The notes beneath the pieces are model-generated. The model saw nothing but the letters and a program-made list of their open reading frames with translations, ran no database searches and had not been told where the DNA came from. From Prevotella sp. (GTDB lineage: Bacteria; Bacteroidota; Bacteroidia; Bacteroidales; Bacteroidaceae), in assembly GCA_017847725.1 (NCBI GenBank), contig JAGAXW010000021.1, forward strand, positions 1-45,869: DNA of 45,869 nt, given 5' to 3'. The translations under genes were made by a program, and so were the position numbers. Positions within the stretch are counted from its first letter, which is position 1. Each line of letters opens with the position of its first letter. Shown piece after piece: positions 135-10,911 of the stretch.

Positions 135-2171
135 TTACAGTCCATGTTCATCATCTTCTGGCCAACTACATCTGGATGTTCCCATATAATTCCATATACC
201 TACGTGATGTATAAAATGAAGATTATATTTATCATCTACTTCATTCTCTTCCAATTTCTCTTCATAGTCTCTATTTGCATTATCAATAGCCTCATGCATA
301 GATTGAAGAAGAGATTCTGATATATCAGCACAAGAAGAATGCCTTAGTGCTGGCAAACAAGTTTTTATAATCAAAAGTCTTAATGAATTGATTTCTGTAT
401 CTTTATTATTCAGGAATAATCTCCATTCTTCCATATTATCGCAAAAACACCAATAGGCATTCCTATACATTCCGTAGAAATATGGGGGGAATGACATCAA
501 AGCACGACGTAACAATCTGTCATCTGGTTTATCGTAGATACTTTTTACTCCACCATCACGACCATCTCCTGCATAGAAGATTTCCATCAATATGTTAGAG
601 CAGTCGATGAAGTCTTGTAATGTATAGTTTTCTATGCCATCTTCATGCTCCAGCATACGGAAAACGCTACTGATACGCCCAGAAAAGAATCTGCTATTCT
701 CCATCTTTTCCATTTGTGGGAAATACTCTGAGGGCATAGAGGCTTTTTTACATTCTTCCTTGATTTGACTTCCGAATGAATGCAGGAAATCATTCTCTTG
801 CTTATCATATGATTGTAGTATCGTATATACATTGCTATGCTTTGTTTGTTCAGCAAAAGCATTTAAGCAATTTAGAATCTCAGGTAACTTTTCTTTCTGT
901 ATGTCGGTATTGAGTATCAAATTTCTACACTCCCTCATCCATGCTTTAGTATCAATGTCTTCAGTAATCAGCAAAACAGCATAAAGCAAAGGAAGAGAAC
1001 GACCATAAGAACTTTCTGAAAGAGCTAAATCGTAAATGGGCATAACATTTGTGTCAATATTTCCCATAAAAAGATCCAAATCATTCACCGCTCTATAAAT
1101 GCATGACAGTTTGTTCAGCGAATCATGCGCAAATTTCAAAAAGTCTAACGGCAATAGTCCTAATCTTTCAATCCAAACTAAAGAAAGCATATCTCCCTTT
1201 TGCAATTTATCAAAGATATAGCTAACTATTTCTGATGTTCCATCTGTCTCTTTCGATTGAGGGAACAATGTCAACAACTGCTCATATAAATAATGATCAG
1301 TTGTTCTCATTCCTCGGATATTGCTTTCTAATTGTTCCTTGTTCAGCATCCAATACAAGATGATTAGATTACAGAAACAGAACAATTGTTCATCATCAAT
1401 TTCTTCTGGATTTATTTGAGTAAGGTTACGATTGTTCCAAAAGAATTGAGTCCACGAATTATCCATGTTATTTATCCACTCATGCAGCCATAATTCATTA
1501 CTATCCTTCATAGCTTGCATTACCTTCTCGTCCATCCATGATTTAAGGTTTTCAAAAACACTTAGTGGACGACCACGGCCATTCATCTTAATATAAATAT
1601 CATCATCAAGCCCGTTCTCTTCTGACATATCAAGAAAAGAAAAAGTAATACCATCTTCTGACAAAAGGTGTTTCCATAATGTTTCAGCCTCCTGACCTGC
1701 ACACTTTCGATGAATATACTTCAGGGTTAGGAGCATATTTTTCACCGTTGTATTATTTAGCCATGAGGATAAAAACCAATACTCGTCTTGAATAATTGAA
1801 TTTAAGCTATCATTTTCGGTGGCTTTCTGTAAAACTTCAGGCATTTTACACTTTAATCTTTCACAGAAATCCCCAGCGTATTCTCTTGACAAGAAAGTAA
1901 GATTAACGGTAAAATCTGACATCATCCCAGCTTTGGCAGCTGCATAAAGATATAAAAGCCATAACGTTGTTAAACGTTGTTGACCATCCACAGGAATAAA
2001 ACTCCCATGTTCCGTATAGCCATAAATATAGTTCAAGTCTGATGGATTTGTTTCATCGAGCAATGAATCTATAAAGGGCGAAATAACAGATTCCTTTCCA
2101 CCTTGAACATAATCTCTCTGCAAAAGGGGAATGCAAATAACCTTGTTTTTGAATATATTCAGAAAGTTCAT
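135..2171 (-). CDS. DUF262 (GmrS-like) protein without a visible HNH domain
   Basis: This 678-aa protein starts with a DUF262 (ParB/Srx-fold) domain. The IPLLQRDY motif is at residues 14-21 and the signature DGQQRLTTL at 62-70. DUF262 proteins include GmrS of the GmrSD type IV restriction enzyme, SspE and BrxU, where this domain binds or hydrolyses nucleotides and gates a nuclease. The remaining 500 or so residues are probably helical. I see no DUF1524 HNH signature (IEH... or GNLxLL) at the C-terminus, unlike the neighbouring DUF262 protein. It is the last gene of a minus-strand run and starts 12 bases after the stop of the preceding gene. A role as sensor or partner subunit of the adjacent DUF262-DUF1524 protein is inference. 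The coding sequence is AT-rich compared with the uvrB region, suggesting transfer. Confidence 0.85.
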   Translation of the reverse strand: MNFLNIFKNKVICIPLLQRDYVQGGKESVISPFIDSLLDETNPSDLNYIYGYTEHGSFIPVDGQQRLTTLWLLYLYAAAKAGMMSDFTVNLTFLSREYAGDFCERLKCKMPEVLQKATENDSLNSIIQDEYWFLSSWLNNTTVKNMLLTLKYIHRKCAGQEAETLWKHLLSEDGITFSFLDMSEENGLDDDIYIKMNGRGRPLSVFENLKSWMDEKVMQAMKDSNELWLHEWINNMDNSWTQFFWNNRNLTQINPEEIDDEQLFCFCNLIILYWMLNKEQLESNIRGMRTTDHYLYEQLLTLFPQSKETDGTSEIVSYIFDKLQKGDMLSLVWIERLGLLPLDFLKFAHDSLNKLSCIYRAVNDLDLFMGNIDTNVMPIYDLALSESSYGRSLPLLYAVLLITEDIDTKAWMRECRNLILNTDIQKEKLPEILNCLNAFAEQTKHSNVYTILQSYDKQENDFLHSFGSQIKEECKKASMPSEYFPQMEKMENSRFFSGRISSVFRMLEHEDGIENYTLQDFIDCSNILMEIFYAGDGRDGGVKSIYDKPDDRLLRRALMSFPPYFYGMYRNAYWCFCDNMEEWRLFLNNKDTEINSLRLLIIKTCLPALRHSSCADISESLLQSMHEAIDNANRDYEEKLEENEVDDKYNLHFIHHVGIWNYMGTSRCSWPEDDEHGL

Positions 2172-2183
2172 AACGAATACACT

Positions 2184-4037
2184 TTAATTCTTGAAATATC
2201 TTATTGTGTTACTCTCTGGCTTATCACACAGCTTTTGCTTGATGTCTTCCCTGTATGCATCGGCATCTGGTTGAAGCCAAGAATTAAGCTTTGTGCTACT
2301 CTTCTTACTGTACGCTTTGGTAAAACATTGCATTGTACATGGAGGTATATAAACCTGAGTAACATTTGTTTCCTCATCATCTTCTGATTTCAAGCCATTT
2401 GCTATAACTACAATCCTTCTTTTTCTGGGAAACAGAGAATTGTGGAAGCTTCTATTGGTATGGCTATCCAATAAAACAAGATTACCGACCTGATTCTTAT
2501 CGTCTTCAGGAATATGGTCTCCATCTTGTGCATCATTATACATAATGACGGCCTTATAGAGTTCGTCAAAATTTTCTTTACTCTTTTTCAAGCCATATTT
2601 GGTTAATCTATCCTTAATCTCTGTGACTTCGAAATAAGAAGGATAGTCATTCCTCACACTGCTCAACCAATCTTTTCTATCTTGTTCATTGTCAAATTTT
2701 GAATCAGTTTGAGATGTAATATGCTCAATATCCCAACTTTGTTTATGCAGAAGTTCAAAGGGGAATTGTTCATATTCATGTTGCAAATTCAGCTCCTTAC
2801 TACTTTTTAAGGTTTCATATTTCTGCAATATGGTTTCAATATTATGCAATAGGAAGAAACGACGCAACATCATAGTCGATATCTGACCATATTCAAAATC
2901 AGAAATTGATAACTTATCGTTAGGATTGATCGTTCGTCTAATACGCTCGCGGAGTCTGTTAACAAAAACAGTTTTTGAATATTCCCGACTACTTTTCAGG
3001 AGAGAAGAAAGAAATATATATCTGTTATCTTGATTGCAATAGGTGAGATAACCAATGTAATGATAGGTGTAGATATTCTTATACATATCATAAAGACGTA
3101 AGAACGTGTGTCTTATCTTCTGCCACCTTGCTTCAAGATTGTCATTTGCCTCATTTGCAAACCACCTAAATGAGCTGCGGAAGTCTTTATCAGCTTCAGA
3201 GTCATCCACCTTGGCAATGAGGTTAAATAATAAATCCATTCGAGTATGGGGGAAAATCGGTTCCTCGCTTGATAGCATCGCCCAAAAATGGTCATTATTT
3301 ATTATCTGCTCCATTTCCTCAAACTGTCGAGCAGCATCATCACGCAACCCTTCGTTTAGTCCAGAAGCACGGTTTAGGAAAAGGGCTTTTATTAGTTCCG
3401 TATTTGTTAATGATATTTTTCCACTATTCAGATTGCGGAACGTTTCATGTGCTTTATTCTCTGGAACTTCATACCATATGACCTGAATTGACTTAGCACT
3501 TTGTCCATTCAGTAGTTCAAGATACTTGCTTTTAATCTCTTCTGTAGTTAGTTCCTTATCTGCTGAAAAAACCTCATCATGATTAGTCTCAAAACAATCA
3601 GAAATGGTCTGGTATGCACGATGTATATAATACAAATCTATCTGGCTATCTGCCAATTCTATACTCTCTTTGCTTGATATATTTGTTAAGAAACTCCATC
3701 GATTTACAATATTGTCATCGTCCTCATTATCTCTTACAAATTCTAAAGTGTAGGCATTTTGATTGGTAAGATATTTATACAGCAGAAATAGAGTTGTCAA
3801 TCTTTGTTGACCATCAAGTACACTATATTTTCCACTTAATGGAACCACAGCTAATGGCTGAAGGCAATAGACACGTTTATTCTCAGGAGCATTCATGAAC
3901 TCCCATAAATCACGAAGCAGCTCTTTTATGTTAGCAGGAGTCCATTTATACCCACGTTGCTGACTCGGAATTTCGTAGATTTCACCTTTTAGTTTTGGGA
4001 AATCCTTCATTGGTATTTGTTCTGATAAAGAAGACAT
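2184..4037 (-). CDS. GmrSD-like DUF262-DUF1524 protein (probable type IV restriction-type nuclease)
   Basis: This is a 617-aa two-domain protein. The N-terminal DUF262 domain shows PSQQRGYKW at 24-32 and LDGQQRLTTL at 74-83. The C-terminal DUF1524 domain shows the HNH-like WDIEHITSQ at 435-443 and QVGNLVLLDSHTNRSF near 516-531, followed by a basic FPRKRR stretch. This arrangement is that of the single-chain GmrSD family, whose members cleave modified (for example glucosyl-hydroxymethylated) phage DNA in a nucleotide-dependent way. The substrate here is unknown. The gene begins 13 bases after the DnaQ-like exonuclease gene and is followed 12 bases later by the second DUF262 gene, so these three are almost certainly co-transcribed. 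Both signature motifs look intact, so the gene is probably functional. Confidence 0.9.
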   Translation of the reverse strand: MSSLSEQIPMKDFPKLKGEIYEIPSQQRGYKWTPANIKELLRDLWEFMNAPENKRVYCLQPLAVVPLSGKYSVLDGQQRLTTLFLLYKYLTNQNAYTLEFVRDNEDDDNIVNRWSFLTNISSKESIELADSQIDLYYIHRAYQTISDCFETNHDEVFSADKELTTEEIKSKYLELLNGQSAKSIQVIWYEVPENKAHETFRNLNSGKISLTNTELIKALFLNRASGLNEGLRDDAARQFEEMEQIINNDHFWAMLSSEEPIFPHTRMDLLFNLIAKVDDSEADKDFRSSFRWFANEANDNLEARWQKIRHTFLRLYDMYKNIYTYHYIGYLTYCNQDNRYIFLSSLLKSSREYSKTVFVNRLRERIRRTINPNDKLSISDFEYGQISTMMLRRFFLLHNIETILQKYETLKSSKELNLQHEYEQFPFELLHKQSWDIEHITSQTDSKFDNEQDRKDWLSSVRNDYPSYFEVTEIKDRLTKYGLKKSKENFDELYKAVIMYNDAQDGDHIPEDDKNQVGNLVLLDSHTNRSFHNSLFPRKRRIVVIANGLKSEDDEETNVTQVYIPPCTMQCFTKAYSKKSSTKLNSWLQPDADAYREDIKQKLCDKPESNTIRYFKN

Positions 4038-4050
4038 AATATGTTGTATC

Positions 4051-4542
4051 TTATAAAATTTCTCTTGCTATCCATGCACATGCCTCTGCATCGGCAAGAG
4101 CATGGTGATGGTTTTCTAACAGATAACCGCACTCTGCCGCTACGGTATGCAATTGATGGTTGGCGAGATAGCGGAAGGCTCGGCGGGAAGCAGCAAGCGT
4201 GTCGTAGAACTCGTAGTCGGGATAGTCCATCTGATACACACGGAACACGGCTTTCAGACAGCCTTCGTCAAAAGGCTTGTTGTGGGCCACAAGAGGCAAT
4301 CCTTGGATTAATGGTTCTATCTGCGCCCACACTTCGGGGAATACTGGGGCATCGTTGGTGTCTTCATAACATAGACCATGAACCTGAGAGCACCAGTAAT
4401 TATAATAGTTTGGCTCTGGTTGGATGAGAGAGTAGAACGAATCTACTATCTCACCATTTCGCACAATGACGATTCCTACAGAGCATACGCTGCTGCGCTC
4501 ATTGTTGGCCGTTTCAAAATCTATAGCTGCAAAATCTTTCAT
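4051..4542 (-). CDS. DnaQ-like DEDDh 3'-5' exonuclease
   Basis: This 163-aa single-domain protein of the RNase T/DnaQ superfamily has all Exo motifs. Exo I is IDFETA with D8 and E10, Exo II is VAHNKPFDEGCLK, and Exo III is HHALADAEA carrying the catalytic His and Asp. It therefore should degrade single-stranded DNA or RNA from the 3' end using two metal ions. It is shorter than a replicative epsilon subunit and lacks a polymerase-binding tail, which fits a stand-alone nuclease. It lies 6 bases after the GIY-YIG gene and 13 bases before the DUF262-DUF1524 gene. That context suggests it trims nucleic acid ends made by the neighbouring nucleases, which is inference. An ordinary repair exonuclease is the alternative. 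Confidence 0.88.
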   Translation of the reverse strand: MKDFAAIDFETANNERSSVCSVGIVIVRNGEIVDSFYSLIQPEPNYYNYWCSQVHGLCYEDTNDAPVFPEVWAQIEPLIQGLPLVAHNKPFDEGCLKAVFRVYQMDYPDYEFYDTLAASRRAFRYLANHQLHTVAAECGYLLENHHHALADAEACAWIAREIL

Positions 4543-4548
4543 ACATTT

Positions 4549-5445
4549 TCAGTTCTCATTATAACCGTGTTCACGTGTCCCAAATTTCTTTTTATAGAGT
4601 GATTCCCTATCTATGGCAACTTTGGGCGTAACGTTAAGAGGAAGCGTTTCAAGGATTGTCCATTGGAAATTTTGGTCAGCATAGCTTATTCCTTTTTCTG
4701 CAAGCAAAGCTACAAGAAGCTTATTGTTTCCATGTCCAGTCTTTGCATATTCAGTCCATCGACCAAGAATACCGTTCTTAATACCTGGCTTCATGTCTTT
4801 ATATGTGACACCAACGTACTGTTTACCCGTTTCCTTGTCAAGAATCATATATACACAATTCAGACTCTCAAGTTTTGACTTCCATTCTTTATCCTCAACG
4901 ACTTTTTGAAGTTGTGAGAACGATAAAATTACATCTTCATAACGTATAAAATACGGAATATCATCACCTGTGTTTACCTGATCAATGCGTCTAACATTTT
5001 TTGTCGACTGCCAGTTCTGCATCCACGACAAAGTACCCTTTCCCCAATCTATTACAACTTTATCTTTTAGACCTTCAAAGCCCTCGACTTCCTCAATGGC
5101 GTATTCTGAAACTCCGTTGCCTGTAGCCCTCTTTGGCCCATAATTTCTATATACACCAATGAAGCGGCATTCGCATCCCTCTTCAGCCAGAAAAACAACC
5201 AAATAATCAACATTCTTCATCTTACTATCAGATTGTTCACTTTGCCATTCCTTAAACAGAGCATAATCTGTGCGATAGAGTTTATATACAGAGCCATTAT
5301 ATTTTTTATAAATGAAACTGTCTGGCTTCACCTCACTACTGTGACGTACAAGTTTTATTCTTGATTCATTCGCATTGTCAAATTCGGAATTTCTGTTCCA
5401 ACCTTTCAGCAAATCTTGAATGCTGATAATATAATCCTTGTCCAT
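4549..5445 (-). CDS. GIY-YIG nuclease-domain protein with a novel N-terminal half
   Basis: This 298-aa protein ends in a GIY-YIG-type nuclease fold. CVYMI at 197-201 corresponds to the GIY strand and KQYVGV at 208-213 to the YIG strand. An Arg at about 229 (ILGRW), a Glu at about 281 (IDRES) and an Asn at about 296 complete the usual catalytic set. The GIY and YIG signatures are both degenerate (VYM and YVG), but the key Tyr, Arg and Glu positions are filled. Residues 1-190 match no family I can name and may provide target recognition. The gene lies 25 bases after the unrecognised gene upstream and 6 bases before the exonuclease gene. GIY-YIG domains occur in restriction enzymes, homing endonucleases and repair proteins; the surroundings favour a defence role. 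Confidence 0.75.
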   Translation of the reverse strand: MDKDYIISIQDLLKGWNRNSEFDNANESRIKLVRHSSEVKPDSFIYKKYNGSVYKLYRTDYALFKEWQSEQSDSKMKNVDYLVVFLAEEGCECRFIGVYRNYGPKRATGNGVSEYAIEEVEGFEGLKDKVVIDWGKGTLSWMQNWQSTKNVRRIDQVNTGDDIPYFIRYEDVILSFSQLQKVVEDKEWKSKLESLNCVYMILDKETGKQYVGVTYKDMKPGIKNGILGRWTEYAKTGHGNNKLLVALLAEKGISYADQNFQWTILETLPLNVTPKVAIDRESLYKKKFGTREHGYNEN

Positions 5446-5470
5446 ATTAATCGATGTTTTAAGTTATTAT

Positions 5471-6523
5471 TCAGTCTCTTCCAATCATATCCCATCCTGC
5501 AATATTGTTTAGAATCCAGAAAGGCATGATGACATTAGGTATTTTGTATTCATACCACTCCCAAAATTGCAGTGCAGTCTTTTGTTCCTCGTATTTGTTA
5601 ATCTCCAGAGCCTCTTTGAAATCGCACAAGACAAAAGTCTTCTCTGGATTATTATGTGCATATTGCAGGAATTCATGAAAGGCAGTTTTAATTGAATTAT
5701 AAAAGTCATCAGCTGTCGCTAATTCAATGGAGTGCTCTTCGCCAGTATAATCATCTGGGATATTATCAGCGCACTGAATAATGCCAAGATGTTCCTCGCC
5801 TTCTATCATTTCTTTCGCTAAATAGCATAGAATATCGTTTTCTCGAAGAACTTCAGACATTTGTTGATATATGAGTTGACGACCTCTTCTTTGTGGCTTA
5901 AAATCATCTGTAAAAAGTGGCTTGCTCTTCGCTTTTGATGCTCTCTCAATCACCTCGTCACGACTAATTCCATAGGGTATATATTGGTTTGTCGGCCAGT
6001 ATAAATTTTCTATTGTAAACAATTTGAATAGCGTAGGCTTAATATTCGAAAAAACTGTGCCTTCCTTGTGCATATCACCGTTTCTTTCAAATTGTACGTC
6101 ACAGTTATCTCCAGCAAGACTAGGTACCAAGGAATCGCTGAAATAGCGCACGAATGATGTATATCCTTTATACGACACAACATCACCAGTGAAAATTTCT
6201 TGAAACTGATCGTCCTTAAATCTTGTATCTACACCAGCAAAGATTACAGGCACCATCGACCATAAGGTAGAAAGATGTAAGGGCTTGTGAAATTTCGTGT
6301 ATTTGTGGTCTTTCGTCAATAGTATTATGACATCACCATCAAAAGTGAACTCACCAAAATAGGCATAGTCAAATTCACCTAAAGGATTGATGAATCTAAC
6401 ACGCCTGCCGTCAAGTACGGACTTTAAGTTGTTCTTGTCTGGAGACGCAACAATTTGCCTGTGATATTTTCGACATAAATCCTGTATGCCACGAAAACTG
6501 TATTTGCTGAAATTAAATACCAT
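5471..6523 (-). CDS. Unrecognised protein of the WYL / GIY-YIG / DUF262 operon
   Basis: I do not recognise this 350-aa protein. The start chosen is the ATG at 6523 (MVFNFSKYSF), because AAGGAGGA sits just upstream at the end of the preceding gene; an upstream start would overlap that gene. The N-terminal half looks beta-rich, with a stretch EIFTGDVVSYKGY that resembles a small beta-barrel binding fold of the YopX/SH3 type, but this is only an impression. A basic segment, PQRRGRQ, lies in the middle. The C-terminal part is helical and aromatic, ending in WILNNIAGWDMIGRD. No signal peptide or membrane segment is visible. It starts two bases after the WYL regulator stop, so the two are translationally coupled and probably act together. 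Confidence 0.7.
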   Translation of the reverse strand: MVFNFSKYSFRGIQDLCRKYHRQIVASPDKNNLKSVLDGRRVRFINPLGEFDYAYFGEFTFDGDVIILLTKDHKYTKFHKPLHLSTLWSMVPVIFAGVDTRFKDDQFQEIFTGDVVSYKGYTSFVRYFSDSLVPSLAGDNCDVQFERNGDMHKEGTVFSNIKPTLFKLFTIENLYWPTNQYIPYGISRDEVIERASKAKSKPLFTDDFKPQRRGRQLIYQQMSEVLRENDILCYLAKEMIEGEEHLGIIQCADNIPDDYTGEEHSIELATADDFYNSIKTAFHEFLQYAHNNPEKTFVLCDFKEALEINKYEEQKTALQFWEWYEYKIPNVIMPFWILNNIAGWDMIGRD

Positions 6524-6525
6524 AG

Positions 6526-7458
6526 TTAATCCTCCTTGTATTTGTTCCACATTCTTTTAATCTTTCCTGCAATTTCTTTGCGGAGCCAGTAGGGTTCAAG
6601 TACCTCCATGTCTTCACCATTCCAAAGCAGTTCCTGCTGGAAATCGAACTCTGGACGGAGATTGAAGGTAAAGATGCTGTACTCTTCGTTGCGCTCTATC
6701 TCTTCCTGGGATTCATGCATCTTCAGGTCACGGATATAGTTTGCCTGTCCTGCAGAAATTTTTAGTTTAACGGGCTGAATCTTGACAGACTGTTCTGCAA
6801 TGATGCCAAAACAGCCTTCAAAGAAATCCTCTGCCGACCAATCCTTTGGCATTTCAAAAGTCTCGTCTGTTGCATGAAGATATTTAATTCGGTCAAGAGA
6901 ATAGATGAACGGTCCATTTTTATAATAATATGGATCTGTGCTTCGTGCCACCATATACCAACGCTGACGGAAAAGCTTCACACAATACGGCTGCACATCA
7001 AAGTTGTTCTCCTCGTCTTTCCAATAACTGTGATAGGTCATGTTCAGCACATGGTTTTCCTTCATTGCCTCAATGATGGGTTGCAAGTAGTTTTGCCCTG
7101 AAGGAACATATTCAAGAATGATACGGTCTTTTATACTCTGACTATTCGCCAAAGCATTGCTGACACAGAAAGTATTATATAACCATGAACGGAGTCCGTT
7201 CTTACTGATGTCCTCCTCGTTCTCAATGTAGTAACGATACTCGCCACGTCCTTCATTAGCGATGTTGATGCCGAACATATCCCAGATGACATAACGCCAG
7301 TTGTCGAAGGTGCGCTTGGGAATATCGACACCTCTACTGATGTCATCACGAAGCCAGAGTTCATTCAGTTCTTTGAATGAAATCTTCCGTCTGCGATAGA
7401 TGGTCTCTATCACCCAGACGTATTTAGTTATCAAACTTTGTCCTCTATCGTTGTCCAT
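6526..7458 (-). CDS. WYL-domain transcriptional regulator, first gene of the putative defence operon
   Basis: The 310-aa protein has an N-terminal winged-helix-like region (about 15-60, with SFKELNELWLRDDI), then a WYL domain in which the signature appears as RQRWYMVARS. A C-terminal WCX-like extension follows. WYL regulators bind nucleic acid or nucleotide ligands and control many defence loci, including BREX (BrxR/CapW-type) and CBASS. The ATG at 7458 is chosen because a TACTTTTG -7 box lies at 7477-7484 and overlaps the only longer (TTG) start. The gene heads a six-gene run with tiny spacers, so it probably senses infection or DNA damage and controls the following nucleases. Confidence 0.85.
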   Translation of the reverse strand: MDNDRGQSLITKYVWVIETIYRRRKISFKELNELWLRDDISRGVDIPKRTFDNWRYVIWDMFGINIANEGRGEYRYYIENEEDISKNGLRSWLYNTFCVSNALANSQSIKDRIILEYVPSGQNYLQPIIEAMKENHVLNMTYHSYWKDEENNFDVQPYCVKLFRQRWYMVARSTDPYYYKNGPFIYSLDRIKYLHATDETFEMPKDWSAEDFFEGCFGIIAEQSVKIQPVKLKISAGQANYIRDLKMHESQEEIERNEEYSIFTFNLRPEFDFQQELLWNGEDMEVLEPYWLRKEIAGKIKRMWNKYKED

Positions 7459-7476
7459 ATTTCTATGATTTATCTG

Positions 7477-7484
7477 CAAAAGTA
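7477..7484 (-). promoter_or_regulatory. -7 box of the WYL operon promoter
   Basis: Reading on the minus strand, TACTTTTG matches the Bacteroidota -7 consensus TAnnTTTG and ends 18 bases before the WYL start codon. No good TTTG -33 box is seen at the normal 19-21 bp spacing, which would suit a regulated promoter. Confidence 0.55.
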
Positions 7485-7554
7485 AAACAAGGGTGCGCCA
7501 AACTGTGGCAGAGGTTGGAGAAAAAAGTAGATTTTGTTAAAAATTCATCTACAT

Positions 7555-7890
7555 TCAACCTCTAGGGACATCTAAAGTTCGGAATTGTTCTTGAAGGTTC
7601 GTTATCTTTTCCATCAACCCGCCGAAAGTCAGAGGTTGCCCATAAATGAAGATCTCCTTCATTTCGTTATAGTCAGCTTCGTAAGAGGACATCAGTTCGT
7701 CACTTGGTACAATCTGAATAGTGGCAGGTAGCTCTTTATCGTAATCCACATAACCAACATGATAGAACTTGCGACGATGTTCCACAATCTCATGATAGAG
7801 CACCAAATCATTAAGAGCCATTTCTGCGTATGGGGTTTGCATCAGTTTCTCCAAGTCGTAGAAGTGACGTGTCATTACGTGCCTTGACAT
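7555..7890 (-). pseudogene. AbiEii-type nucleotidyltransferase toxin, C-terminal remnant
   Basis: Translation gives about 110 residues beginning TRHFYDLEKLMQTPYAEMAL and ending in a coiled segment. The RHFYDL motif, the aromatic stretch YHVGYVDYDKELP and the DYNEMKEIFIYG motif are typical of the last third of AbiEii/AbiGii toxins. The whole N-terminal nucleotidyltransferase core (GGT/S and D-x-D motifs) is missing. Upstream the DNA runs straight into the start of the AbiEi antitoxin gene in another frame, so an internal deletion removed the end of AbiEi and most of AbiEii. The remnant cannot be an active toxin. The assignment rests on remembered family motifs. Confidence 0.7.
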
Positions 7891-8056
7891 ACACACCTTT
7901 GGCTATTCGTGTAATCAATCCTTCTTTCTCAAAGATGGCGAGCAGTTTTGTGACGTACTCGACATCATATTGGGGAAAAGAAGAAACAAAGAATATCTCG
8001 CCAAACTTACTGCGAGTAATCCTTTTTCTAATCTGTTGTACTACTGCATTCTCCAT
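7867..8056 (-). pseudogene. AbiEi / DUF6088-type antitoxin, N-terminal remnant
   Basis: From ATG at 8056 about 60 residues read as an AbiEi-like winged helix: VVQQIRKRITRSKFGEIFF, then EGLITRIAKGVYVKAR. In intact homologues KGVYVK is followed by a long C-terminal domain. Here the frame enters DNA that, one frame over, encodes RHFYDLEKLM of AbiEii, and ends at 7811 in out-of-frame sequence. The deletion junction lies about 7867-7880. The 81-aa product could still be made and would keep a DNA-binding wing, so a residual repressor is conceivable. A promoter box and an operator-like repeat are preserved upstream. Confidence 0.7.
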
Positions 8057-8076
8057 CGATTTTGTATATAAATTAT

Positions 8077-8114
8077 GGTCGGAATAATAATAAATATTTC
8101 CGACCTCAAAGATA
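8077..8114 (-). promoter_or_regulatory. Promoter and operator-like inverted repeat of the AbiE remnant
   Basis: GGTCGGAA at 8077-8084 and TTCCGACC at 8098-8105 form a perfect 8-bp inverted repeat around an AT-rich 13-bp centre. On the minus strand a TATCTTTG -7 box (8107-8114) lies directly before it, so the repeat covers the expected transcription start and leader. AbiEi antitoxins are known to repress their own promoter by binding inverted repeats, which fits this site. The operator role is inference. Confidence 0.55.
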
Positions 8115-8542
8115 CAAAATTTCTTTTATACAACAATACTTTAAGTGTTGATATTAAGTTTCATTGGCAAATTATAGCGTTTTTCTTGCTGTATAGATGG
8201 CATTCCTATATAAATAATATTATACCACGTAATCACCCAAAGGCTGAGAAAGCACTTGCTGCTTTCGAAGCAGAAACCGCCATGTTTAATTCTATGAAAC
8301 CTTAAGGTGACGTGAGTTCGACGAATTCGCGTAGTTCCACATAAAGTATATTGATGTAAACGCCGAACTCTATAAAGAAAACAGGATTCACGATAACTCG
8401 TATCCATCTGTATGACTGCGCTTTATGCGTGAAACTAAGTTTTTGTGAACACAGGCATGCAGTTCAGGTGGGCGCTATCTATTAAAATAGGCCGAACCAT
8501 CATCTAAATCAGGTTTATCACCGCCTGGAGAGCCTTAGTTCA

Positions 8543-8721: not shown

Positions 8722-8865
8722 TTTCATTGAACTCACATTAGTATTAGGATACAAGTCATGCCCGCACAGTACAGTTTTCATCGACTTTGGCACAGAAAAT
8801 GGCAGAAATATGTTACAAAACTCAACAAATTGCACTAAACTCTACGTTTTTTCCTATAAAAGATG

Positions 8866-8873
8866 TAACTTTG
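8866..8873 (+). promoter_or_regulatory. -7 box of uvrB (near-leaderless start)
   Basis: TAACTTTG fits TAnnTTTG and lies only 7 bases before the uvrB ATG. If transcription begins about 5-7 bases after the box, the mRNA starts at or next to the start codon. Confidence 0.6.
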
Positions 8874-8880
8874 CACAATT

Positions 8881-10911
8881 ATGAATTACAAGCTTATCTC
8901 CAAATACAAGCCAACAGGCGATCAGCCTGAAGCTATCCGCCAGTTAACCGAGGGTGTAAAACGAGGTGACCATGCGCAGGTTCTTTTAGGCGTAACAGGA
9001 TCCGGAAAGACCTTTACCATTGCAAACGTCATAGCGAACATCAACCGCCCTACCCTCATCTTGTCGCACAACAAGACCCTGGCCGCCCAGCTTTATGAAG
9101 AGATGAAGGGCTTCTTCCCTGAAAACGCAGTTGAATATTATGTCAGCTATTATGACTACTATCAACCAGAGGCCTACCTGCCAACCACCGATACTTATAT
9201 CGAGAAGGACCTGGCCATCAACGAGGAGATAGACAAGCTGCGACTGCGTGCGGTAAGCGCCTTGATGTCAGGAAGAAAGGACGTCATCGTTGTATCTTCA
9301 GTTTCATGCATCTACGGTATGGGAAGTCCCATGGCGCTGCATGAGAACATCATTGAGATACACCGTGGCCAAATACTTGACCGCAATGCCTTGTTAAGGA
9401 AATTAGTAGCAGCCCTATACGTCAGGAACGACATCGAACTGAAGCGTGGTTCCTTCCGAGTGAAAGGAGACACCATCGACATCGCCATGGCTTACAGCGA
9501 GGTAGTGCTGCGCATCACCTTCTGGGACGACGAGATAGACTCCATCGAAGAACTGGACAGCGTCACCATGGACCGGCTTGCCACTTTTGACGAGTACAAG
9601 CTGTATCCGGCCAATCTGTTCATGACGACGCAGGAGCAAACCAACATAGCCATTCGACAAATACAAGACGACCTGGTCAAGCAAGTAGCCTTCTTTGAAG
9701 AACTTGGCGACCAGATTAAGGCACAACGCATAAAAGAGCGTGTGGAGTACGACATGGAGATGATCAAGGAACTTGGGCACTGTTCGGGTATAGAGAACTA
9801 TTCGCGCTATTTCGACGGGCGACAGGCCGGCGAGCGCCCCTACTGCCTGCTTGACTTCTTCCCCGACGACTACCTGCTGGTGATTGACGAGAGCCATGTG
9901 TCGGTGCCACAGATCGGGGCGATGTATGGTGGCGACAGAGCACGCAAGACAAACCTTGTAGAATATGGCTTCAGACTGCCGGCCGCTTTCGACAACCGGC
10001 CGCTGACATTCGAGGAATTCCAGCAGATGACCCATCAGGTCATTTACGTTTCGGCCACGCCTGCCGACTACGAATTGCAAGAGTCCGAAGGTGTCGTCGT
10101 CGACCAGGTGATACGGCCGACAGGACTGCTCGACCCCATCATCGAGATACGACCGACAGAAAACCAGATTGACGACCTGATGGAGGAGATACAGCAGCGC
10201 ATAGAGCACCAGGAGCGCGTCTTGGTGACGACACTGACCAAGCGCATGGCCGAGGAACTGTCGGAGTATCTGCTGAACCACGACATTCAAACGGCATACA
10301 TCCACAGCGAGGTGACCACGTTAGACCGTGTAAAGATACTGGAGAAGCTGCGCAACGGCACCTACGATGTTCTGGTGGGAGTAAACCTGCTGCGCGAAGG
10401 CCTCGACCTCCCCGAGGTGTCACTCGTAGCCATTCTCGACGCTGACAAAGAAGGTTTCCTGCGCTCTCACCGCTCGCTGACACAGACAGCAGGACGCGCA
10501 GCGCGCAACGTAAACGGAAAAGTCATCATGTATGCGGACACCATCACCGCCTCCATGCAACTGACAATCGACGAGACACAACGCCGACGTAACAAGCAGC
10601 TGAAATACAATGCTGAGCACGGTATTACCCCCACCCAAATCAAGAAAGCACTGACGACCTCGCTAGTGGCTGCCGACTCCAGCGACACCAAGGAACTGCA
10701 GCGCACCAGCATTGGTGCTGCGACTGCCGGCGGCGCAGCTTTTGCTGCCGATCCCATCGTCGAACGAATGACACGCCAGCAACTGGAGAAGAGCATCACG
10801 GAAACCACAAGACTGATGAAGGAAGCCGCCAAGAAACTGGAGTTTCTACAGGCTGCACAATACCGCGACGAAATCATACGGCTTCAGAAAGTACTGGAGT
10901 TGAAGGGATGA
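8881..10911 (+). CDS. uvrB: UvrABC excinuclease subunit B
   Basis: This 676-aa protein is the DNA-damage-loading helicase of nucleotide excision repair, acting with UvrA and UvrC in the cytoplasm. Walker A is GVTGSGKT at residues 37-44. The YYDYYQPEAYLPTTDTYIEKD region near 91-111 is the beta-hairpin that clamps damaged DNA. The DESH Walker B box is at 336-339, and helicase motifs V and VI follow (GVNLLREGLDLPEVSLV; QTAGRAARN). A C-terminal UVR motif (LEFLQAAQYRDEIIRLQ) that contacts UvrC closes the protein. Length and motifs are normal and complete. It stands alone after an accessory region and is followed by a gene with its own promoter box. Confidence 0.98.
   Translation: MNYKLISKYKPTGDQPEAIRQLTEGVKRGDHAQVLLGVTGSGKTFTIANVIANINRPTLILSHNKTLAAQLYEEMKGFFPENAVEYYVSYYDYYQPEAYLPTTDTYIEKDLAINEEIDKLRLRAVSALMSGRKDVIVVSSVSCIYGMGSPMALHENIIEIHRGQILDRNALLRKLVAALYVRNDIELKRGSFRVKGDTIDIAMAYSEVVLRITFWDDEIDSIEELDSVTMDRLATFDEYKLYPANLFMTTQEQTNIAIRQIQDDLVKQVAFFEELGDQIKAQRIKERVEYDMEMIKELGHCSGIENYSRYFDGRQAGERPYCLLDFFPDDYLLVIDESHVSVPQIGAMYGGDRARKTNLVEYGFRLPAAFDNRPLTFEEFQQMTHQVIYVSATPADYELQESEGVVVDQVIRPTGLLDPIIEIRPTENQIDDLMEEIQQRIEHQERVLVTTLTKRMAEELSEYLLNHDIQTAYIHSEVTTLDRVKILEKLRNGTYDVLVGVNLLREGLDLPEVSLVAILDADKEGFLRSHRSLTQTAGRAARNVNGKVIMYADTITASMQLTIDETQRRRNKQLKYNAEHGITPTQIKKALTTSLVAADSSDTKELQRTSIGAATAGGAAFAADPIVERMTRQQLEKSITETTRLMKEAAKKLEFLQAAQYRDEIIRLQKVLELKG

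Follow-up and report, generated by a model that had tools for sequence, protein, structure and literature searches.

A probable composite, inducible type IV restriction operon headed by a WYL regulator in a Prevotella contig

The DNA analyzed here (the window) is a complete 45,869-base contig of a Prevotella sp. genome (2.39 Mb, 56 contigs, ~81% complete), and our subject is a putative defense operon near its first base. Six intact open reading frames (ORFs) lie on the minus strand from 7458 to 135; in the order of transcription we call them F, E, D, C, B, and A, and the spacers between them measure 2, 25, 6, 13, and 12 bases. F (6526–7458) encodes a WYL-WCX transcription regulator (Pfam WYL, 9.1e-13; WCX, 1.3e-10; profile matches to solved WYL regulators). 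E (5471–6523) encodes a protein of 350 amino acids (aa) with a YopX-like region and a C-terminal segment akin to the A1S_2505/phrog_2072 domain, as assigned from homologues, from YopX in its relatives, and from profile comparison. D (4549–5445) encodes a UzuA (Uzume) protein with a C-terminal GIY-YIG nuclease, recognized by PADLOC and by alignment, and C (4051–4542) a DEDDh 3′–5′ exonuclease that retains its catalytic residues (Pfam RNase_T, 7e-20; PADLOC DEDDh, 1.2e-24). B (2184–4037) is a DUF262 protein with a DUF1524/HNH nuclease domain in GmrSD/TgvB layout (Pfam GmrSD_N and GmrSD_C [5.4e-6]; motif alignment), and A (135–2171) a DUF262 protein of TgvA layout (Pfam GmrSD_N/DUF262) in which HNH went undetected and GmrSD_C was unmatched. 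A preliminary description, made from the letters of the sequence, had already named six closely spaced minus-strand genes in AT-rich DNA and the WYL, DEDDh, GIY-YIG, DUF262-DUF1524, and HNH-less DUF262 products; the family scans confirmed these domains, and the GC content is indeed 36–40% in the operon region versus about 45–56% across most of the contig.

The reading frames appear sound. The proportion of nonsynonymous differences (pN) was well below that of synonymous differences (pS) in 10/10 pairs compared, indicating that the frames are not coding by chance. E starts with ATG at 6523, a GTG-started ORF reaching 6550, and F starts with ATG at 7458, a TTG-started ORF reaching 7479 with its TTG inside the promoter box. 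This promoter-like box, TACTTTTG, occupies 7484–7477, and 7 bases upstream of it stands a putative operator (7492–7514, minus strand), the imperfect inverted repeat CCTCTGCCA-N5-TGGCGCACC. The single promoter box proposed earlier is present, but, judged against the Bacteroides-type promoter consensus, a full promoter of this type is uncertain because the upstream TTTG lies only 14 bases from the box.

The putative operator recurs at related genes. Directly before a TAnnTTTG box at close F genes we found the imperfect repeat CCTCTGCCAC-N4-TGGCG(T/C)A (window copy, 7514–7492), set in upstream DNA that is mostly dissimilar outside the repeat. Its strict core was present at 11/18 close-F loci (11/19 if L111 is counted, a partial F [87%] that lacks the strict core and stands outside the 18), compared with 75/2940 random 330-base windows, and at 15/69 over all WYL entries; the associated binomial value of 8e-14 is descriptive only, because the loci in which it was counted are those that first drew attention to the repeat.

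The F protein carries Pfam WYL and C-terminal WCX domains, and the Pfam scan returned no helix-turn-helix match in its N-terminal part or elsewhere. By profile, its closest solved relatives are the WYL proteins 7u02, 7tzv, 9cu3, 9pfq, and 8tp8, some of which we take to be DriD, followed by PafBC. According to an abstract, DriD binds single-stranded DNA (ssDNA). A search of viral contigs gave 4 matches to F. As a WYL regulator heading a defense operon with an inverted repeat at its promoter, F resembles BrxR and CapW (PMC9122601; PMC9122588); it differs in that other WYL proteins and PafBC are its closest solved relatives by profile and in that the sequence of the repeat is its own. In the available text of PMC9122601, the sites that BrxR binds near its own promoter are imperfect repeats of 11 bp set 5 bp apart, and 37/210 BrxR-associated defense systems are of the type IV restriction kind.

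To score co-occurrence, each gene was searched in 301 genomes of the same family, evenly drawn from a larger group, with E-value thresholds of 1e-3 for E and 1e-10 for F, C, D, B, and A. Matches were found in 16 genomes for E, 174 for F, 194 for C, 6 for D, 39 for B, and 33 for A. The DUF262 pair proved to be a strict unit: A lies directly behind B on the same strand in 34/34 listed A places (33 genomes). Among 35 fetched B-A loci (these 34 and L074), 11 had a same-strand WYL gene within 5 kb upstream, 11 had a DEDDh gene there, and 9 had both (the window, L025, L026, L043, L049, L054, L062, L073, and L074), while most had no WYL and DEDDh gene upstream. The DEDDh protein encoded between F and B-A in L043, L049, and L054 belongs to a distant subfamily (~40% aa identity), so this arrangement has acquired DEDDh genes of two subfamilies. 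The preliminary description had considered that the DUF262 pair might be conserved alone, with the other genes varying freely. This holds in part: B-A does occur as a unit without upstream WYL and DEDDh genes in most of the 35 loci, but WYL, E, DEDDh, and the B-A pair recur together, with D absent, in three genomes besides that of the window.

Conserved motifs support the assignment of both DUF262 proteins. QR, DGQQR, H439, N519, N528, and N533 of B are invariant across 8 aligned proteins, and QR and DGQQR are present in the A and B translations alike; at the FxxxN position, B reads FRNLN and A reads YIKMN. A profile of B and its relatives matched SspE and the DUF262 protein 7p9k, which we take to be BrxU. 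B has both domains of the single-protein DUF262-DUF1524 enzymes GmrSD, BrxU, and SspE, but differs from them in having a second DUF262 partner gene. In this respect it resembles TgvAB, a two-protein GmrSD-family type IV restriction system of V. cholerae VPI-2, which in the available text of PMC11411939 likewise comprises two adjacent genes, each with an N-terminal DUF262 domain bearing DGQQR and one with DUF1524. Our comparison is by domain layout, not by sequence to VC1766/VC1767. The order in the window is opposite to tgvA-tgvB, the nuclease gene preceding the helper gene; type I restriction-modification genes are not among B-A, and WYL, DEDDh, and E stand upstream. The same text reports that TgvAB protects against T-even-type phages, for which its authors infer sensing of hypermodified cytosine; that both proteins, both DUF262 motifs, and the nuclease residues of TgvB are needed, why TgvB alone is insufficient remaining unclear to the authors; and that 1,341 operon homologues exist, Bacteroides fragilis among them. 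The earlier proposal of a defense operon of the GmrSD kind is well supported.

The exonuclease gene shows an association with F. C retains DxE and HxxxxD, is intact, and is under purifying selection; the ratios of nonsynonymous to synonymous substitution rates (dN/dS) of F, E, and C versus L109 were 0.04–0.06. Places of F and C were tallied among 150 listed places each, a count in which links may be missed. A listed F lay within 10 kb on the same strand at 22/150 listed C places, with ~0.3 expected by random placement in 3-Mb genomes, and 13 of the 21 top-listed F places have C. As a defense marker in its own right C was rejected, since for the other 128/150 listed C places the F list had no same-strand entry within 10 kb.

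All 22 F-linked C loci were read. A type IV enzyme lay within 8 kb downstream of C in 11/22 of them versus 2/52 unlinked loci (Fisher 9e-6), and in 10/21 when the window was set aside (Fisher 3e-5). L152 (C upstream of F), L064 (DUF262 pair upstream), and L024, L028, and L100, whose contigs end ~1.3 kb or less past C, were kept as negatives among the 22. The unlinked group is a non-random set, consisting of the best-scoring C places (L086–L099) and 38 taken down the list, some on short contigs; its two loci with a type IV enzyme are L089, with an internally deleted F, and L121, with a WYL gene on the opposite strand. F without C was accompanied by a type IV enzyme in 2/23 loci, a hand-counted group picked by high similarity (L029, L032–L036, and 17/20 further loci) from which L163, L170, and L171, which have C, and L040, whose contig ends, were left out. 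A 170-aa PLD nuclease gene showed the same pattern, being present in 10/22 F-linked and 2/52 unlinked loci; it was not found in the window's own genome, which is ~81% complete and whose contig ends after A. Near F or C we found three kinds of type IV enzyme, namely the B-A pair, a GmrSD_N-DUF7834 plus GmrSD_N-GmrSD_C pair (L023, L155, and L029, where the second gene was assigned by clustering), and McrBC. Other cargo in F/C loci includes RhuM-Fic proteins (L024, L027, L030, and L038) and PD-(D/E)XK nucleases (L031 and L041).

E, the one product that had gone unrecognized, matched no Pfam family at an E-value of 0.1 and gave a weak match to NF049995 (0.023). YopX was detected in 4/6 scanned E-type relatives (5.2e-5, 6.2e-5, 0.0063, and 0.13, the first two passing the Pfam cut-off) but not in E or its two closest scanned relatives, L026 and L027; E is tied to the YopX-bearing relatives by sequence (16 genomes of 301). 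The YopX matches led us to reject the idea that E is wholly novel. Profile alignment pairs the C-terminal segment of E with the domain at the N-terminus of longer E-type proteins (hhalign 79.5%, E-value 1.5e-5, a single comparison). This domain corresponds to phrog_2072 and matches 391 phage records, a few of them annotated as ADP-ribosylglycohydrolase. E thus looks like a reshuffled protein built of domains otherwise found in phages. The viral-contig search recovered no relatives of E or of the longer L075 E-type protein, and E was unmatched in the plasmid search.

Close full-length relatives of E were found in six loci: the window, L025, L026, L027, L109 (an IMG/VR contig), and L173. L110, an apparent near-copy of L109, was excluded from this table because its E is cut off after 27 aa. 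Within two genera, a close E occurs in 2/71 genomes (G222 and G311) and 1/45 (G197). In 6/6 of these loci F lies upstream and C near E, F being frameshifted near residue 35 in L027, and 6/6 carry a type IV gene, either a DUF262 pair (window, L025, L026, and L173) or a McrBC-family gene (L109 and L027). D is missing from 5/5 of the other close-E loci. A nucleotide-modification protein, Nmad3, is encoded between E and C in L027, and E follows C in L173, so the position of E is not fixed.

Several arrangements around E-type genes were noted alongside these counts. L173 (4965–16640) carries in a row a WYL gene, a YopX-type gene with a 200-aa partner, DEDDh, E, a DUF262 pair, PLD, an AAA ATPase, and RhuM-Fic. 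L109 (3121–16922), on a contig binned as viral, combines a type III methylase and helicase, WYL-E-DEDDh, a 272-aa unknown, an AAA gene, a McrC-family gene, and a DNA polymerase III alpha gene. A family of 177–203 aa stands behind YopX-type genes, in the place D takes elsewhere (L024:894–1505, L042:3672–4259, L078:8416–8949, and L079:8029–8601), with no confident Pfam match in the 3/4 members scanned.

D matches two PADLOC UzuA models (PADLOC-DB 2.0.0), at 6.3e-71 over residues 22–298 of 298 and at 6.1e-45, while its GIY-YIG match falls below the Pfam cut-off. Y199, Y210, R229, E281, and N296, presumably the catalytic residues, are invariant among 6 relatives, in agreement with the earlier remark that Tyr, Arg, Glu, and Asn are kept. 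Uzume is regarded as a single-gene system. In our family sample, D adjoins an E-type (YopX-like) gene in 6/6 loci (E-type gene upstream in 5, downstream in L084), in contrast to 0/6 plasmid loci from other phyla, where no E-type, WYL, DEDDh, or DUF262 neighbor was found within the 4–5 kb read on each side; in all, 342 plasmid records match D. On these grounds we interpret D as a Uzume gene that has a partner specific to this family and that, among the loci seen, is joined to C, B, and A in the window alone. The five family D loci besides the window carry a different E branch and have no DUF262 or DEDDh gene in the stretches read. WYL proteins of two of them, L075 and L084, are 36–38% identical to F, the L084 gene lying on the opposite strand beside the E-type gene and D. 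D was also considered as a phage gene and rejected, as 3/50,697 phage records match and none covers 80% of D; the viral-contig search found no D relatives. Finally, in L075 (7100–10477) consecutive WYL, A1S_2505-YopX, and UzuA genes precede a PD-(D/E)XK nuclease gene, an arrangement that may be a stand-alone WYL-headed Uzume operon.

Comparison of the closest loci suggests exchange of genes behind a kept control region. F and C are 82–93% identical at the protein level to their copies in L023–L028, where E is 45–66% identical, of another branch (L024), or missing. At the DNA level, the similarity of L023, L024, and L028 to the window is confined to C and to F plus its promoter; the L026 match adds part of E, and that of L027 adds 8058–8218. 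L021 holds a decayed DEDDh 3′ fragment (8864–8995) directly before a B gene whose product is 92% identical to that of the window over 343 aa, and a separate F-C-cargo set lies upstream on the same contig. C stands behind a cut-down F in L087 and L089, and, by eye, L097 and perhaps L098 retain only the last F codons. At the level of sequence, these loci suggest cargo swapping and loss of F. In L087 (380–525), the WYL gene is reduced to its last 31 codons while the promoter repeat and the DEDDh gene are retained.

A WYL gene placed first behind a shared repeat, tight spacers, and a pair of TgvAB layout together form an anatomy that fits an inducible type IV restriction operon. With a probability of roughly 0.6, we read the locus as a composite, inducible operon for modification-dependent (type IV) restriction, which combines effectors that can be swapped, accessory nucleases, and a Uzume gene. 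Such an operon probably cuts phage DNA carrying modified bases, and we infer that its parts work together. In the proposed mechanism, F would repress the operon via the promoter repeat until a nucleic-acid or nucleotide ligand arising in infection releases it, a mode of control already suggested for other WYL regulators. B and A would jointly sense hypermodified phage DNA through their nucleoside triphosphate-binding DUF262 domains, the HNH domain of B would cut the sensed DNA, and C may trim the cut 3′ ends or ssDNA, thereby blocking repair of the cut. E could serve loci of this class as an accessory adaptor or sensor, and D could be a separate Uzume-type nuclease brought into the window locus. 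The effectors appear to be exchangeable, in that related loci have McrBC or a different DUF262 pair behind the same head.

Several observations weigh against this interpretation. D accompanies the gene set in the window only. The strict operator core is missing in 7/18 close loci and at the more distant F genes in front of B-A pairs (L043, L049, L054, L062, L073, and L074), and the frameshift in L027 affects the presumed regulator itself. E changes its position and may be neutral cargo, and its AlphaFold prediction (two sequences) reached a pLDDT of 33 and was not used. C often occurs alone, and the C tree shows no clustering of its F-linked copies (26/86 entries; 20 changes versus a shuffled mean of 22.4; 71/500 shuffles as low), so C may be repeatedly captured and may act independently. 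In addition, the counts are drawn from related species and hence are not independent.

An obligate system of all six components, as the preliminary description had envisaged in proposing one undescribed system, is very improbable. The tight spacing and single promoter region would suit it, but all six genes were found together, in order, in no locus other than the window among those seen, D is absent from the five other close-E loci and is a named UzuA, and A-B lacks upstream F and C in most of the 35 loci. UzuA, the family name of D, was not part of the preliminary description. The fallback offered at the time, a GmrSD enzyme with accessory genes picked up around it, comes close, except that the accessory genes form a recurring set.

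Two further explanations are partly compatible with the inducible restriction reading. The genes may be independent defense genes (B-A, UzuA, DEDDh, and E) that share a regulator and promoter and are co-expressed only, an unlikely account in our estimation. B-A, E-type genes with D, and C are each found without the others, F-C loci carry other cargo such as the RhuM-Fic protein and PD-(D/E)XK nuclease, and BrxR-type WYL regulators are known from the available text of PMC9122601 to head varied systems, all as expected of an island fragment; the enrichment of type IV enzymes at C loci with F (11/22 vs 2/52), the presence of F, C, and a type IV enzyme beside close E relatives in 6/6 loci seen, and the second, distant DEDDh subfamily between F and B-A in L043, L049, and L054 argue for a closer tie. 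It is more doubtful still that DEDDh and WYL are recombination anchors between which cargo is swapped by homologous recombination, with DEDDh having no defense role. The DNA matches of L023, L024, and L028, confined to F with promoter and C, have the form such anchors would leave, as do the decayed DEDDh fragment beside the 92% identical B and second F-C set in L021, and the cut-down or nearly lost F genes of L087, L089, L097, and perhaps L098. Against this stand an intact DEDDh gene under purifying selection and a distant subfamily (~40% aa identity) too diverged for the same recombination.

Beyond the inducible restriction operon itself, we tentatively raise the idea of a standing defense platform in bacteria of this family, in which a frame of WYL with its operator, DEDDh, and a small PLD nuclease exchanges type IV enzymes and E is a shared adaptor coupling those enzymes to trigger or target. 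The parts are of known kinds; their recurrence and swapping behind a shared regulator looks new. The locus rises above an ordinary defense island in that WYL, DEDDh, and type IV enzymes recur together, with effectors that are exchangeable, and in that a YopX-like gene accompanies them in 6/6 loci seen. In the open-licence literature searched (the listed titles and starts of abstracts, with the original Uzume paper outside this scope), we found neither WYL, DEDDh, and type IV restriction together nor a partner of UzuA. Type IV enzymes act against phages that are shielded by modified bases. A recurring exonuclease and YopX-like partner, found next to three kinds of these enzymes under one type of regulator, offer a direct way to ask what such enzymes need beyond the cutting subunit. 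The association may also provide a first functional lead for YopX-like proteins, and the loci show how a defense locus may trade effectors while its control region is kept.

Upstream of F lies an AbiE remnant (7555–8056) in which an AbiEi N-terminus and an AbiEii C-terminus overlap in different frames across an internal deletion, so that the neighboring AbiE scar reported earlier is genuine. Past it follows a gene taken as uvrB from its translation, where the GC content is ~53%. In L027, DNA matching 8058–8218 (93%) abuts the F promoter, the AbiE remnant being unmatched. On the other side, the sequence past A is mostly unseen because the window begins at contig base 1. Within bases 1–113, a plus-strand frame ends at 84–86 inside a hairpin (arms 78–89 and 102–113) that lies between two convergent genes and is perhaps a shared terminator.

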